From positions 620,001 to 684,000 of the forward strand of contig NZ_CP113065.1 in NCBI RefSeq assembly GCF_026625825.1: a stretch of DNA of 64,000 nucleotides, in the 5' to 3' direction. Of the stretch, positions 24,085 to 37,536 are shown piece by piece (position 1 is the first letter of the stretch; each line of letters opens with the position of its first letter). Below the pieces are notes generated by a model. That model searched no databases and was not told the DNA's origin. It saw only the letters and a program-made list of their open reading frames with translations. A program made the position numbers and the translations under genes. This stretch comes from Pseudoxanthomonas sp. SL93. GTDB lineage: Bacteria; Pseudomonadota; Gammaproteobacteria; Xanthomonadales; Xanthomonadaceae.

Positions 24085-25287
24085 TCAGCCGCGGCTGACC
24101 GCGTAGACCGCTGCCGCCACCTTGTCGATGTTCTGCTGGTTCAGCGCGGCCACGCAGATGCGGCCGGTGCCGATGGCATAGATGGCGTACTCCTCGCGCA
24201 GCCGGTCCACCTGGGCCTTGCTCAGGCCCGAGTACGAGAACATGCCCGCCTGCTGCTGGATGAAACCGAACTCCGGCGCGCCCAGCGCCGCCAGCTTGCC
24301 CACCAGCGCCGCGCGCAGGCCGTGGATGCGCTCGCGCATGCCGCCCAGTTCCTGTTCCCAGCGGCCACGCAGTTCATCGCTGCCCAGCACGCCGGCCACC
24401 AGTGCGCCACCGTGGTTGGAAGGGCTGGAGTAGTTGGACCGGATGGTGCGCTTGATCTGCGACAGCACGCGCTTGGACTCGTCGCGGTCGGCCGAGACGA
24501 TCGACAGCGCGCCGACGCGTTCGCCGTACAGCGAGAACGACTTCGAATACGAGTTGGCCACCACGAAGGCCGGCAGGCCCGAGTCGGCGAACAGGCGGAT
24601 CGACTGCGCGTCCACGTCCGGTCCCTGGTCGAAGCCCTGGTAGGCCATGTCGATGAAGGGCAGCAGGTTGCGCGCCTTCACCAGGTCGACCACCTGCGTC
24701 CACTGTTCCGTGGTCAGGTCGACGCCGGTCGGGTTGTGGCAGCAGGCATGCAGCAGGACCACGGTGCCGGGCTCCAGTGCCGCCAGGTCGGCCAGCATGC
24801 CGGCGAAGTCCAGGCCATGCGTGGCAGCGTCGTAATAGCGGTAGTCCACCACGTCGAATCCCGCCGTGGCGAAGACCATGCGGTGGTTTTCCCAGCTGGG
24901 GTTGCTGATGGCGATCTTCGCGTCGGGCAATGCGCGCTTCAGGAAATCCGCGCCGATGCGCAATGCGCCGCTGCCACCGATGGTCTGCGCGGTGACCACG
25001 CGACCGGCCGCCAGAATGGCCGAATCCGCGCCGAACACCAGTTTCTGGGTGGCCTGGTTGTAGGCCGGCAGGCCGTCGATCGGCACGTAGCCGCGCGGCT
25101 TGGCCTCGGCGGCGAGCGCCTGCTCGACCTCGCGGACGGTATCGAGCAGCGGAATGCGGCCCTGTTCGTCGTAATAGATGCCTACGCCCAGATTGACCTT
25201 GCCGGGGCGGGTATCGGCGTTGTACGCCTCGGTCAGCCCCAGGATCGGATCGCCCGGGACGAGTTCGACGGATGCAAAAAGAGACAC
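24085..25287 (-). CDS. tyrB: Aromatic amino acid aminotransferase (TyrB/AspC family)
   Basis: A 400-residue class I PLP-dependent aminotransferase of the aspartate/tyrosine group, acting in Phe, Tyr and Asp transamination. Motifs are KVNLGVGIYYDEQGRIPLL, YVPIDGLPAYNQATQKLVFG, the ligand stretch LLHACCHNPTGVDLT, the PLP-lysine motif NSYSKSFSLYGERVGAL and the C-terminal GTGRICVAALN. Its length is the usual 395-400. It converges with the ABC ATPase gene across a shared terminator and diverges from smc. TyrB versus AspC specificity is not certain from sequence alone. Confidence 0.92.
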   Translation of the reverse strand: MSLFASVELVPGDPILGLTEAYNADTRPGKVNLGVGIYYDEQGRIPLLDTVREVEQALAAEAKPRGYVPIDGLPAYNQATQKLVFGADSAILAAGRVVTAQTIGGSGALRIGADFLKRALPDAKIAISNPSWENHRMVFATAGFDVVDYRYYDAATHGLDFAGMLADLAALEPGTVVLLHACCHNPTGVDLTTEQWTQVVDLVKARNLLPFIDMAYQGFDQGPDVDAQSIRLFADSGLPAFVVANSYSKSFSLYGERVGALSIVSADRDESKRVLSQIKRTIRSNYSSPSNHGGALVAGVLGSDELRGRWEQELGGMRERIHGLRAALVGKLAALGAPEFGFIQQQAGMFSYSGLSKAQVDRLREEYAIYAIGTGRICVAALNQQNIDKVAAAVYAVSRG

Positions 25288-25573
25288 GGATGTGGACCGT
25301 TATGAGGGAGGAGGGGGAGTGAAGCGGCCTGCGATCCTAGCAGGCGCGGGCGACGTCGTGGCTGCGTCCCGGGCCCTGCCGCGGCGCTGGCCCGCGGGTC
25401 CGGCAGGCCCGGGCAGAGCACGGCAGGGGCGGCTATACTCATTCGTTGGTGCGGCCAAGGCCGTGCCGGATTGTCATCCAGATCAATGGCTTGGCATTCC
25501 AAGCTCATCCCATTTAACACTTGCGGCAGCGCGCCGGCCCAGCCCGGTCGCGGTGCCCGGAAGACACCGCCGC

Positions 25574-28500
25574 ATGCGCCTTTCCACCATCAAGCTGTCC
25601 GGTTTCAAATCCTTCGTCGACCCCACGGTGCTGCACCTGCCGACCAACATGACCGGCGTGGTCGGTCCCAACGGTTGCGGCAAGTCCAACATCATCGACG
25701 CGGTGCGCTGGGTGATGGGCGAAAGTTCGGCCAGCCGCCTGCGCGGCGATTCGCTGACCGACGTGATCTTTTCCGGCTCGGCGGCGCGCAAGCCGGTGTC
25801 GCAGGCCTCGGTGGAGCTGATCTTCGACAACAGCGACCACACCATCAGCGGTGAATTCGCCGCCTTCAACGAGATCTCGGTCCGGCGCCTGGTCAGCCGC
25901 GACGGCCAGAGCAGCTACTACCTCAACGGCACCAAGTGCCGCCGCCGCGACATCACCGACCTGTTCCTCGGGACCGGCCTGGGCCCGCGCAGCTACTCGA
26001 TCATCGAGCAGGGCATGATCAGCCAGATCATCGAGGCGCGCCCGGAAGACCTGCGTATCTACCTGGAAGAGGCCGCCGGCATCTCCAAGTACAAGGAGCG
26101 CCGCAAGGAAACCGAGACCCGCATCCGCCACACCCGCGAGAACCTCGACCGCTTGGGCGACCTGCGCGAGGAGATCGGCAAGCAGCTGGAACACCTCAAG
26201 CGCCAGGCCAAGCAGGCCGAGCAGTACCAGGCCCTGCAGGAAGAGCGCCGGGTGAAGGACGCCGAATGGAAGGCGCTGGAGTTCCGCGGCCTGGATGGCA
26301 GGCTGCAGGGCCTGCGCGAAGGCCTGTCGCAGGAAGAGACCCGCCTGCAGCAGCTCATTGCCGAGCAGCGCGAAGCCGAACGCCACATCGAGACCGACCG
26401 CCTGAAGCGGGAGGAGAGCGTCGAGGCGCTCAACAAGGCACAGGGCGAGGTCTACCAGGTCGGCAGCACGCTGGCCCGCATCGAACAGCAGATCCAGCAC
26501 CAGCGCGAGCTGGGCGACCGCCTGAAGAAGGCCCGCGACGAAGCCCACAACGCGTTGCAGGAACTCGGCCAGCACATCAGCGGCGACGAGACCCGCCTGA
26601 ACGTGCTGCGCGAGTCCGTGGCCGACGCCGAGCCGCAGCTTGAACAGCTGCGCGAAGACGACGTGTTCCGCCAGGACGCCCTGCGCGAAGCCGAGACCCG
26701 CCTGTCCGACTGGCAGCAGCGCTGGGAAACCCACAGCCGCGAATCCGCCGAGGCCTCGCGCGCCGGCGATGTCGAGCGCACCCGCGTGGACTACCTGGAC
26801 CGCCAGGGCTTCGAAGCCGAGCGCCGCCGCGAAGCCCTCGCCAGCGAGCGCGCCGGGCTGGACCTGGACGCCCTGGCCGCTGCGTTCGAACAGCTGCAGG
26901 TGCAGCACGACACCCAGAAGGAATCGCTGGAAACCCTTACCGAGCAGGTCGAGGCACGCAAGCAGGGCGCCGCCGACGTGCAGGAGCAGCAGCGCGCCAC
27001 CCAGACCGAGCTGTCCGACGTGCGCAAGCGCACGCAGGAAGCCCGCGGCCGGCTGTCGTCGCTGGAAACGCTGCAGCATGCCGCGCTGGGCCAGGAGCAG
27101 GGTGCCGCAATGACCTGGCTGAAGGCGCGCGGGCTGGACAATGCGGCGCGCGTCGGCGAGAAGCTCACCGTCGAGCCGGGCTGGGAAAACGCCGTGGAAG
27201 GCGCCCTCGGCCAGCTGATCGAAGGCGTGCTGGTCGATGCCCCCGAAGCCCTGGTCGACGCACTGGGCGAACTGGGCGATGGCCGCATCGCGCTGGTGTC
27301 GGACGACCGCGGCGACGTCAGCTTCGCGCCGACGTCGCTGGCCGCGAAGGTGCAGGGCCCGGCCGCGATCCGCCGCCTGCTGGCCCGCCTGCACGTGGCC
27401 GAAGACCTCGCCGAGGCCCGCCGCCTGCAGTCGCAGCTGGGCGAAGGCGACTCCGTCATCACCCGCCACGGCGAACGCTTGGGCGCCGGCTGGGTGCGCG
27501 TGCTGCGCTCCGGTGCGGCCAAGCAGGGCGCCCTGCTGCGCGAGCGCGACATCCAGACGCTGCGTGGCGAGATCGAAACCCTGCAGGCGCGCGAAGCCGA
27601 GCTGGAACACCGCCTCGCCACGCTGCGCGACCAGTTGCTGGCCGCCGAGCAGCAGCGGGAGGACGCGCAGCGCGCGCTCTACATGGCCCACCGCAGCGTG
27701 TCCGAACTCGCCGGCCAGCTGCAGAGCCAGCAGGGGCGGGTGGATTCCACCCGCACCCGCATCGAACGCATCGACGGTGAAATCGCGCAGCTGGTCGAGA
27801 CCCTCGATGCCAGCCGCGAGCAGGCCCGCGAAGCGCGCATGAAGCTGGAAGACGCGGTGACCCGCATGGGCGACCTGGAAGCGACCCGGCAGGCGCTGGA
27901 AGCCGAGCGCCGCCAGTTGGTCGAAGCGCGCGACCAGGCCCGCGAAGCGGCCCGCGCGTCGCGCGACGCCGCGCATGCGCTGGCGCTGACCCTGGAATCA
28001 CAGCGCGCCCAGATCGTCTCGCTGAGCCAGGCGCTTGACCGCATGGGCGGTCAGCGCGGCCAGCTGGATTCGCGACTGGAAGAACTGACCCTGCAGTTGA
28101 ACGAAGGCGATTCGCCGGTGCAGGAACTGGAAGCCCAGCGGCAGGCCGCACTGGAGCACCGCGTCACCGCCGACCGCCTGCTGACCGAGGCGCGCGCCGC
28201 GCTCGACGCCATCGACAACGACCTGCGCCAGTATGAGCAGACCCGCCACCAGCGCGACGAGCAGGCCCTGGCCCAGCGCGAACGCATCTCGCAGCGCAAG
28301 CTCGACCAGCAGGCGCTGGCGCTGAAGGCCGAACAGCTGTCCGAAGCCGTCGTCGCCGGCGGCTTCGTGCTGCAGGACGTCATCAACACGCTGCCCGAGG
28401 TGGCCGACATCCGCGAATGGGAGCAGGCCGTCACCCAGATCGACGGCCGCATGCGCCGCCTGGAGCCGGTCAACCTGGCGGCCATCCACGAGTACGGCGA

Positions 28501-29077
28501 AGCCAGCCAGCGCGCCGAGTACCTGGAAGCGCAGAACATCGACCTGACCACCGCGCTGGAAACGCTGGAAGACGCCATCCGCAAGATCGACCGCGAGACC
28601 CGTGGCCGCTTCAAGGACACCTTCGACCGCGTCAACGCCGGCGTGCAGCAGTTGTACCCGCGCCTGTTCGGCGGCGGCCATGCCTACCTGGAACTGACCG
28701 GCGAAGACCTGCTGGATACCGGCGTGGCCATCATGGCGCGCCCGCCCGGCAAGCGCGTGTCCAACATCTCGCTGCTGTCCGGCGGCGAGAAGGCGATGAC
28801 CGCGGTCGCGCTGGTCTTCGCCATCTTCCAGCTCAACCCCGCGCCGTTCTGCCTGCTGGACGAAGTCGATGCACCGCTCGACGAAGCCAACGTGGGCCGC
28901 TTCACCAACATGGTGAAGGAGATGAGCGAGAAGGTGCAGTTCCTGTTCGTCAGCCACAACAAGGCGACCATGGAAGCCGCACACCAGCTCAGTGGCGTTA
29001 CCATGCGCGAGCCCGGTGTCAGCCGACTGGTGTCGGTCGACCTGGAAGAGGCCGCGCGCCTCGCCGGGGCTGCGTGA
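25574..29077 (+). CDS. smc: Chromosome segregation protein SMC
   Basis: A 1167-residue structural maintenance of chromosomes ATPase, core of the SMC-ScpAB complex. The N-terminal head has MRLSTIKLSGFKSFVDPT and Walker A GPNGCGKSN (about 31-39). Long coiled coils flank a hinge at about 510-640 (WENAVEGALGQLIEGVLVDA). The C-terminal head has the signature NISLLSGGEKAMTAVALVFAIF (about 1065-1085) and Walker B PFCLLDEVDAPLDEANVGRF. I chose the ATG at 25574 because the SMC head begins exactly there; the frame is open about 130 codons further upstream with unrelated sequence. The partners scpA and scpB lie at the other end of the window. Confidence 0.97.
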   Translation: MRLSTIKLSGFKSFVDPTVLHLPTNMTGVVGPNGCGKSNIIDAVRWVMGESSASRLRGDSLTDVIFSGSAARKPVSQASVELIFDNSDHTISGEFAAFNEISVRRLVSRDGQSSYYLNGTKCRRRDITDLFLGTGLGPRSYSIIEQGMISQIIEARPEDLRIYLEEAAGISKYKERRKETETRIRHTRENLDRLGDLREEIGKQLEHLKRQAKQAEQYQALQEERRVKDAEWKALEFRGLDGRLQGLREGLSQEETRLQQLIAEQREAERHIETDRLKREESVEALNKAQGEVYQVGSTLARIEQQIQHQRELGDRLKKARDEAHNALQELGQHISGDETRLNVLRESVADAEPQLEQLREDDVFRQDALREAETRLSDWQQRWETHSRESAEASRAGDVERTRVDYLDRQGFEAERRREALASERAGLDLDALAAAFEQLQVQHDTQKESLETLTEQVEARKQGAADVQEQQRATQTELSDVRKRTQEARGRLSSLETLQHAALGQEQGAAMTWLKARGLDNAARVGEKLTVEPGWENAVEGALGQLIEGVLVDAPEALVDALGELGDGRIALVSDDRGDVSFAPTSLAAKVQGPAAIRRLLARLHVAEDLAEARRLQSQLGEGDSVITRHGERLGAGWVRVLRSGAAKQGALLRERDIQTLRGEIETLQAREAELEHRLATLRDQLLAAEQQREDAQRALYMAHRSVSELAGQLQSQQGRVDSTRTRIERIDGEIAQLVETLDASREQAREARMKLEDAVTRMGDLEATRQALEAERRQLVEARDQAREAARASRDAAHALALTLESQRAQIVSLSQALDRMGGQRGQLDSRLEELTLQLNEGDSPVQELEAQRQAALEHRVTADRLLTEARAALDAIDNDLRQYEQTRHQRDEQALAQRERISQRKLDQQALALKAEQLSEAVVAGGFVLQDVINTLPEVADIREWEQAVTQIDGRMRRLEPVNLAAIHEYGEASQRAEYLEAQNIDLTTALETLEDAIRKIDRETRGRFKDTFDRVNAGVQQLYPRLFGGGHAYLELTGEDLLDTGVAIMARPPGKRVSNISLLSGGEKAMTAVALVFAIFQLNPAPFCLLDEVDAPLDEANVGRFTNMVKEMSEKVQFLFVSHNKATMEAAHQLSGVTMREPGVSRLVSVDLEEAARLAGAA

Positions 29078-33795: not shown

Positions 33796-34151
33796 ACCGC
33801 CCCCTGCAGACCCACACCGGCCGCTGCCATTGCGGCGCCGTGCGCTTCGAGATCGACACCGATTTCCCCGAACTGACCCGGTGCGACTGTTCCATCTGCC
33901 GCAAGAAGAACGCCTTGATGGTGAAGGTGCACGAAAGCGCCTTCCGCCTGCTGGCCGGCGAAGACGCGCTGACCGACTACCAGTTCCACACCCGCACCGC
34001 CCACCATTACTTCTGCAAGGTGTGCGGAATCTATCCGTTCCACCGCAAGCGCGTGACCCCCGACTACTACGGCATCAACGTCTACTGCCTGGACGACTTC
34101 GATCCCGACGGCATCCCGGTGCGGATGACGGTGGGCGCGGGCATGCCGTGA
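33792..34151 (+). CDS. GFA family zinc protein, second copy
   Basis: A 119-residue protein of the same fold as the one at 33017 but clearly divergent. Its zinc motifs are TGRCHCGAVRFEI, LTRCDCSICRKKNALM and HHYFCKVCGIYPFHRKR. It ends with GINVYCLDDFDPDGIPV. Start overlaps the phosphatase-like gene (ATGA). The arrangement GFA, phosphatase-like, GFA with overlapping reading frames suggests co-translation and perhaps a shared role, which the sequence does not reveal. Confidence 0.88.
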   Translation: MNRPLQTHTGRCHCGAVRFEIDTDFPELTRCDCSICRKKNALMVKVHESAFRLLAGEDALTDYQFHTRTAHHYFCKVCGIYPFHRKRVTPDYYGINVYCLDDFDPDGIPVRMTVGAGMP

Positions 34152-34174
34152 GCACGCTCCGCTAGACTGCGGCC

Positions 34175-34717
34175 ATGTGCCGCTTCGTCACCGCCGTTCT
34201 GCCCGCCAGTGCGCCGATTGCCGCGCTGGATGCGCTTGCGCGTGCGCATGGCAGGCAGCTCCGTCCGCTGGCAAGCCCGTCGGTGCAGGGGCAGCTGGTG
34301 GCCGGCGAGGCCTATTTCCTGACGACGCTCGGCGAATGCGATTGCGGTGGGCCGCTGGGTCGTGGACGTTCTTCGCAGACGACCGACTGGGACGAGAAGG
34401 CGCGCCGACTGGCGCTCAAGGGCTGGAGTCTGGCCAAGGTGGCGCGCGCGCTGGGCCAGAAGCGGGCGCACGCGGACGCGGATGCCGGGGCGGAGGCGCG
34501 ACGCGTCGACGAGGCGATGGCGACGTGGGTGGCCTACATCAAGAACATGCTGCAGTCCGGCCATGTGCGTGAACTCGGCCTGCTGCTCCACCAGTACCGC
34601 GGTCCGCTGGACGAAGACGTGACCCTCCGCGAACGCCGCCGCGTCAAAGTGACCGCAGCGCTGCCCGAGGTCCTGCGCGACCTGGACGAGGACGTGCTGT
34701 ATCTGTTCCACGCCTGA
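34175..34717 (+). CDS. Hypothetical protein with CxCGGPLG motif
   Basis: A 180-residue predicted cytoplasmic protein I cannot place in a named family. It starts MCRFVTAVLPASAPIAAL and has a short glycine/cysteine motif GECDCGGPLGRG near residue 55. A helical middle follows (WDEKARRLALKGWSLAKVARALGQKRAH, then VDEAMATWVAYIKNML), ending EVLRDLDEDVLYLFHA. Its frame shows normal codon bias and a clear ATG, and it follows the GFA gene by 23 bp on the same strand. The CDC pair might bind metal. It is the last gene before the 21-bp array. Confidence 0.6.
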   Translation: MCRFVTAVLPASAPIAALDALARAHGRQLRPLASPSVQGQLVAGEAYFLTTLGECDCGGPLGRGRSSQTTDWDEKARRLALKGWSLAKVARALGQKRAHADADAGAEARRVDEAMATWVAYIKNMLQSGHVRELGLLLHQYRGPLDEDVTLRERRRVKVTAALPEVLRDLDEDVLYLFHA

Positions 34718-34762
34718 TCTGACCCGCATCGGGCGTTCCACGGGCCGTGTCTCTCACACTTG

Positions 34763-35093
34763 CCATCGGGAGATGGCACTCGGAGCTCCATCAATGGAGC
34801 TCGGAGCCCCATCGGCCGGGCTCGGAATCCCATCGATCGAGCACGCGAGCCCCGTCGATGGCTTCCTGAGCTCCATCGACGGCTTTCGGAGCTCCATCGA
34901 TCACATTCCGAGCTCGATCGATGGAGCACGTCAGCCCCATCGATCACATTCCGAATGCCATCGATGGCTTCCTGAGCCCTATCGATCGGGCTTTGAGAGC
35001 CATCGATGGCACTCAGAGGGCCATCGATGGAGCAGGTGAGCCTTGCGGTTGGGATTCCGAGCTCCATCGATGGAGCTCCGAGGGCGATCGGCC
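34763..35093. repeat. Degenerate 21-bp-period tandem array of CCATCGATGG-type palindromes
   Basis: About 15 units recur, with the core A of CCATCGAT found near 34790, 34811, 34832, 34875, 34896, 34917, 34939, 34960, 34981, 35002, 35023, 35066 and 35087. Spacings are 21 or 22 bp, about two helical turns. Units carry GAGC/GCTC flanks; the one at 35059-35078 is a perfect 20-bp palindrome, GAGCTCCATCGATGGAGCTC, and the first has one mismatch. The array fills most of the 476-bp gap between the last accessory gene and ligA. Open frames through it encode only 7-residue repeats because 21 is a multiple of three. Confidence 0.85.
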
Positions 35094-35184
35094 GCCAGCG
35101 GACCCGGCAACGCCACGCGACGGAGGGCAGGGACCGTCCCCCACCCGCCGGCGTTGCGCCTTCCCTCACGGCGCGGGGCTTTAG

Positions 35185-37536
<2,352 letters not shown>

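Follow-up and report, generated by a model that had tools for sequence, protein, structure and literature searches.

What is a dense run of palindromic units, following one another at 21 or 22 bp, doing in front of the gene for NAD-dependent DNA ligase (ligA) in Pseudoxanthomonas sp. SL93? A sequence-only reading had described about 15 units at 34763-35093; the array itself was upheld on re-examination, with its extent corrected to 34762-35100 and its unit number to 16. All coordinates refer to the window, that is, the whole 64,000-nucleotide stretch analysed, which corresponds to positions 620001-684000 of the chromosome, a single contig of 3,845,069 bases. Plasmid maintenance, which that reading had raised, is therefore inapplicable to an array on this 3.85-Mb contig.

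Layout of the array at ligA

The features of the locus are as follows.

34175-34717, + strand: gene of 180 aa, with its stop codon 45 nt upstream of the array
34752-34761, + strand: boundary motif TCTCACACTT at the left edge of the ligA array
34762-35100, no strand: palindrome array, 16 dyad-symmetric units with steps of 21/22 bp
34783-34802, no strand: near-perfect 20-bp palindromic unit GAGCTCCATCAATGGAGCTC
35059-35078, no strand: perfect 20-bp palindromic unit GAGCTCCATCGATGGAGCTC
35194-37536, + strand: ligA (NAD-dependent DNA ligase), with its ATG at 35194

The units start at 34762, 34783, 34804, 34825, 34847, 34868, 34889, 34910, 34932, 34953, 34974, 34995, 35016, 35038, 35059 and 35080, giving steps, in order, of 21, 21, 21, 22, 21, 21, 21, 22, 21, 21, 21, 21, 22, 21 and 21 bp. 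Identity at a lag of 21 reaches 0.548 in the array, compared with 0.260 +/- 0.025 in 2000 letter shuffles (maximum 0.358), and the top identity at lags 20-22 among 2519 other segments of the 64 kb is 0.435, within a long open reading frame (ORF). The second-strongest lag 20-22 signal of the window, at 27826-28206, lies in the long ORF 25178-29077 and is probably a protein repeat. Dyads with at least 8 of 9 complementary pairs occur 4 times in 335 positions of the ligA array, against a background of 0.00036 per position. Of the repeated core reported earlier, the period and the dyads stand, as does the perfect palindrome at 35059-35078, but the exact core CCATCGATGG is present only 4 times (ATCGAT 9 times) and three units (34762, 35038 and 35080) are degenerate. 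Across 178 units from 12 arrays (six from this genome and six ligA arrays of relatives), the consensus is GAGCCCCATC|GATGGCNYTCC, which is dyad-symmetric. The units run end to end and the spacers are not unique, in agreement with the earlier statement that this is not a CRISPR.

The flanks show features of their own. At the edge matching 34752-34761, the ligA arrays of relatives mostly carry TCTCACAT or a near variant. The 180-aa gene, without matches in Pfam and NCBIfam, is present at 8 of 10 array-bearing ligA loci (not found at L147 and L157) and diverges fast, with 50-90% identity among relatives. On the other side, TAGAAT at 35182-35187, just 5' of the ligA ATG, is kept in 11 of 11 aligned sequences, the present one included; judged by eye, it suggests a promoter between the array and ligA, and its position in 35182-35193 suggests that the ligA transcript may be nearly leaderless. 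A sigma-70 scan called no promoter between the array and ligA. Coding was rejected as an explanation, with no ORF of at least 100 aa confined to the ligA array and 22-bp steps that break the reading frame; on the antisense strand, a long ORF does run across it.

Recurrence at fixed gene borders and across the family

The ligA array is real but not a single feature. A three-unit, sequence-only model (R1, built on 31 sequences) detected six arrays in this genome (G000), near 655, 1090, 1356, 2091, 3102 and 3738 kb (E <0.01), in a search that scored 150 of 2204 first-look candidates and could miss arrays with other letters. These six occupy sites A-F, four of which are common to sister species, and two further sites, G and H, were found in related genomes. 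The sites, defined by homology of flanking proteins, are given below with the distance from stop codon to array, taken from this genome for A-F, from G008 for G and from G015 for H.

Site A, before ligA: arrays at 10 among the best 30 ligA loci, that of this genome included (38 genomes searched, 37 with a match, best 30 loci kept); 45 nt
Site B, before pckG: arrays in 13 genomes, this one included; 23 nt
Site C, beside a VOC-family gene: arrays in 5 genomes, this one included; 104 nt
Site D, from an endonuclease/exonuclease/phosphatase (EEP)-family gene to an M16 peptidase gene: arrays in 7 genomes, this one included; 5 nt
Site E, after tex: array in this genome only; 53 nt
Site F, after clpB: array in this genome only; 190 nt
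Site G: arrays in 6 genomes; 46 nt
Site H: arrays in 4 genomes; 23 nt

Names for pckG, clpB and the EEP family come from NCBIfam matches (the last below its cut-off), and the VOC, M16 and tex genes are what we take them to be from their translations. Six borders (A, B, C, D, G and H) thus carry arrays in at least two genomes, and recurrence at fixed gene borders in sister species indicates that the arrays are old and vertically inherited. Since arrays adjoin unrelated genes at seven other sites in this or sister genomes, the link to ligA that had been proposed is unlikely to be specific. Among LigA loci of at least 84% identity (n=9), eight are from named Pseudoxanthomonas and one from a Luteimonas metagenome-assembled genome. 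P. mexicana DSM 17121 (L009) has neither the ligA array nor the 180-aa gene, and G020 retains remnants of 2 units at ligA and 3 units elsewhere (L222), besides an additional short array of 5 units at site D. Three more arrays (L236, L241 and L248) were placed at none of sites A-H.

The gene borders share an arrangement. At 8 of 8 sites the array adjoins the 3' end of a gene on one side, with the stop codon 5-190 nt away (at most 104 nt at 7 of 8); six sites are co-directional, two convergent and none divergent, an avoidance of divergent borders that is not significant alone with eight sites. At five of the six co-directional sites the array lies closer to the stop codon before it than to the start codon after it, site F being the exception. 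Gene context was called with a crude ORF caller, and three sites were checked with ORF lists.

Several side observations concern these arrays. They are rather evenly spaced along chromosomes, the smallest gap being about 267 kb in this genome (3.85 Mb) and 522 kb in G015 (4.23 Mb), with few arrays in each. The array at site E (L226, 1089.6-1089.9 kb of contig C1) is made of superunits, each 85 bp long and composed of four different 21/22-bp units, one of which has ATGTGAGA, and traces of the superunit occur at C and D. The sequence TCTCACATT is found repeatedly within arrays other than that at ligA, and TCACA/TGTGA half-motifs, often located in it, reach a density of 5.44 per kb across 47 arrays and their flanks, versus 0.22 per kb in the window. 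These halves occur in arrays at sites A and C-H in this and related genomes, are absent from the 13 site-B arrays, and mostly take a single orientation per site. The CRP/Clp operator motif is TGTGA-N6-TCACA; despite the frequent halves, 0 exact sites and 1 one-mismatch site were found in the 20118 bp of those 47 arrays and flanks, and this candidate was rejected.

Beyond the close relatives, R1 at E <= 1e-3 gave matches in 23 genomes of the family out of 297. A second model, R2, was built on 34 sequences (loci from other genera together with some own-clade arrays) and has the consensus nAGCGCCATCGATGGCGCTnn. At E <= 1e-4 it found matches in 19 of the family's 54 genera, in 54 genomes out of 395. 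The other 341 show no match at this threshold under strict filters, so the array is dispensable. Lag analysis of 16 loci (15 of them from other genera) recovered 21-bp arrays in 13, the failures being L191, L198 and L196 (best lag 42, with an identity of only 0.41), and 13 of 14 loci passed a second check, some of them overlapping the first set. The period is thereby confirmed in 12 of the 19 genera, the present one included, the other seven being model matches alone. Arrays of other genera are written in other letters, such as GGACGTCATCGATGAGGTTCC, GAAGCGCATCGATGGGGTTGC and AAGCGTCATCGTTGACGGTCA. A class-wide draw of 369 genomes gave R2 matches only in G000 and in one of the 368 others; the locus of this weak match (L282) failed the lag test. 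Arrays without a CATCGATG-like core would escape both models, and the actual spread may therefore exceed what they show. Phage and plasmid records gave no blastn match, which led to rejection of a mobile element, and the one two-core pattern tested had no exact match in viral contigs.

Foldability and hairpins

Short palindromes just behind stop codons invite comparison with REP/BIME elements, and one alternative is that the arrays act as BIME/REP-like hairpins, in 3' untranslated RNA or as cruciform or single-stranded DNA, serving as a two-sided transcription stop or a shield of mRNA 3' ends. The stop codons at 8 of 8 sites, the lack of divergent borders and an extreme foldability favour it: RNA folds of the ligA array score z -11.7 and -13.2, and 48 of 48 arrays (L236 and L241 dropped) fold below mono-shuffles. 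Column shuffles that keep period and consensus still leave 46 of 48 below (mean z -3.15), while after half-unit reshuffles the real arrays fold hardly better (mean z -0.31, 30 of 48 below zero). The strong gain over column shuffles and the near absence of one over half-unit shuffles indicate that the arms act as an alphabet of half-sites that occur on both strands and have no fixed partner. A half-unit thus hardly prefers its own partner, which counts against hairpins; the excess of within-unit pairing is small (5.65 versus about 5.35 of 10), with p <0.05 in 2 of 15 single arrays.

More specific folds were also rejected. Per-unit hairpins with compensating changes, prompted by symmetric core changes in L010, show half-unit pairing hardly above permutation, and a single giant hairpin across the array has a best-centre complementarity of 0.43-0.69, no more than the dyad consensus gives. 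A conserved RNA fold received an unfavourable RNAalifold covariation term of +1.4 in 11 ligA sequences, some of them near duplicates and with an uncertain alignment at the 3' end. Moreover, the sense strand is less foldable than the antisense in 32 of 47 arrays (three unassigned arrays dropped), and together with the missing covariation gain this speaks for a role at the DNA rather than the RNA level. No intrinsic terminator (stem-loop plus T run) was matched in 34100-35400 at the ligA site, and hairpins need no strict two-turn spacing. Taken together, hairpins are a rather unlikely explanation. Rfam returned six animal miRNA matches and one flg-Rhizobiales match, all far below gathering scores and judged to be chance.

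Like REP/BIME, the arrays are made of short palindromic units, are intergenic, often follow gene 3' ends and are strongly foldable. Unlike them, they nearly lack the tag (1 GTAG/CTAC and 7 CGTC/GACG in the 1843 bp of the six arrays in this genome), occupy six detected places rather than hundreds, recur at fixed orthologous sites and keep a strict 21-bp phase; nor does any array lie near the two Y1_Tnp (RAYT-like) genes of this genome (C1 467079-467405, with an internal stop, and 2582415-2582693). The SMAG repeats of Stenotrophomonas maltophilia are GTAG-tagged, palindromic and intergenic, in very many dispersed single or paired copies. They share with the arrays the bacterial family and the character of palindromic intergenic repeats, but their dispersed, tagged copies do not form helix-phased arrays (the SMAG paper is cited in PMC3733652).

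Spacing, letters and the likeliest function

Helical phasing, already claimed for the ligA array, extends to the whole set. Among 757 steps in 50 arrays, which are not independent because orthologs share steps by descent, 633 measure 21 bp, 99 measure 22, 14 measure 23, 3 measure 20, 5 measure 14, 2 measure 28 and 1 measures 29. The 746 steps of 21, 22 or 23 bp have a mean of 21.17, that is, two turns of 10.58 bp, and the eight of 14, 28 or 29 bp lie at array ends or form compensating pairs. Steps of 22 or 23 bp return mostly every 4-8 units and so keep the register from drifting; in five arrays, four of them at site B and one at G, the regular part is made of 21-bp steps throughout. The 20 arrays outside the clade gave 251 steps of 21, 17 of 22 and 3 of 20 bp under a procedure that allowed 20-22 only.

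Against this regularity, one alternative is a neutral relic, an old drifting tandem repeat that is occasionally re-homogenised by unequal exchange. Letter drift is indeed close to the neutral rate: in ten close ortholog pairs the divergence is alike in arrays (487/3249) and adjacent spacers (213/1225), and at site B it exceeds that at four-fold sites of pckG (0.317 versus 0.192 mismatches, with loose unit anchoring). Letter constraint is accordingly weak, array letters evolving about as fast as the adjacent spacer and at B faster than four-fold sites, with core columns changing less than arms (0.174 versus 0.266, in 20 pairs that were selected to have equal steps and an identity >0.68). Local re-homogenisation is visible at site B of G000 and G022 as a 42-bp alternation, judged by eye, and in the superunits of site E, where identity rises to 0.79 at unit distance 4 (weaker superunits at C and D); many species without a detected array also suit a relic.

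The phase behaves differently from the letters. In the same ten pairs, drawn from sites A, B, C, D, G and H, off-phase gaps number 10 per 487 mismatches in arrays versus 40 per 213 in adjacent 3' spacers (OR 0.11, p 4.6e-12), the spacers being an imperfect neutral control that is shorter and may contain promoters. Over 12 settings (gap penalties, sites D/H dropped) the odds ratio stays below 1 (0.08-0.28), with p from 2.9e-13 to 0.16 and below 0.05 in 10 of 12; under the stiffest gap penalty, significance is lost without site D (p 0.054) or without D and H (p 0.16). Part of the array gaps in one pair of equal steps (L207/L251) are compensating sets (3 and 3). Such a scarcity of off-phase indels stands against a relic, as tandem repeats usually gain indels. 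So does the near absence of 20-bp steps (3 of 757) beside common 22-bp ones, in a calling procedure that penalised all steps but 21 alike. Unit-to-unit identity is nearly flat, at 0.53-0.56 from unit distance 1 to 8 in 47 arrays, as expected for sites each held to a consensus and not for recent copies; it drops slightly, from 0.58 to 0.54, in the 20 arrays outside the clade. Other genera, finally, keep the form with different letters. A neutral relic is thus unlikely. The outcome that the sequence-only reading had regarded as damaging, a one-off microsatellite losing its period, was looked for in close relatives; the period is kept there while the letters change.

A strong gyrase site comprises about 130 bp of phased GC/AT variation, and the arrays resemble such sites and BIME-2 in being intergenic, helix-phased and partly palindromic. 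Bendable DNA that gyrase or a nucleoid protein wraps, as a transcription-independent, BIME-2-like strong gyrase site, would suit arrays downstream of genes with steps near 10.6 bp per turn and the E. coli precedent (PMC6379681: a gyrase motif whose phased GC variation has a period of 10.75, and BIME-2 acting as strong gyrase sites). It is improbable, as AT/GC phasing is weak in the arrays: in the ligA array the AT periodicity near 10.5 bp does not stand out (power 2.8, against a background mean of 1.9 and maximum of 8.0), and 3 of 49 arrays (L241 dropped) exceed every background segment. The median best period is 10.54, at low power. DNA curvature, earlier offered as a possible explanation of the phasing, was rejected as well, the wedge-model value of the ligA array lying at the 11th percentile of the window.

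The observations describe a non-coding element of the chromosome, inherited vertically and mostly 230-470 bp long, with its dyads on one helix face and a position just after transcription units. We tentatively propose as its likeliest function that a dimeric DNA-binding protein docks on it in fixed helical phase, just 3' of transcription units; the sequence at ligA is compatible with dimeric-protein binding. With about 16 dyad sites two helical turns apart, all dyads would face one side, and a dimeric or oligomeric protein of the family could dock on this lattice with loose demands on letters and strict demands on spacing. Once docked, it might oligomerise into a nucleoprotein block or wrap, and such a block directly 3' of a transcription unit would act as a topological or transcriptional boundary. 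Iteron and operator arrays at plasmid origins or partition sites likewise place tandem protein sites about two helical turns apart; the present arrays differ in being chromosomal, several per genome, dyad-symmetric and letter-tolerant, and the ligA array has ligA and the 180-aa gene, not a rep gene, as neighbours and no match in plasmid records.

Two arrays of one genome (L197 and L280 in G282) differ in consensus letters, so a single sequence-specific protein fits less well. The weak letter constraint, the many family genomes lacking a match, the dependence of the indel deficit on sites D and H under the stiffest gap penalty and the slight drop of identity with unit distance outside the clade also count against the docking model. 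A changed protein specificity across all arrays of G017 was rejected, its pckG array lacking, by eye, the new core of its ligA array. It is possible, if doubtful, that the arrays form a family-wide class of Xanthomonadaceae boundary elements, in which selection would act on helical register and dyad symmetry and not on sequence, with a protein reading the spacing while letters differ by genus and array.

Titles and abstract openings in the open-licence literature yielded no description of such arrays, and the evidence points to an unrecognised structural DNA element. Because its form is conserved more than its sequence, it is easily overlooked by alignment and motif searches. Selection on spacing with drifting letters is unusual for non-coding DNA; if it holds, these arrays would provide a test bed for how a protein reads helical phase and for the borders of bacterial transcription units.
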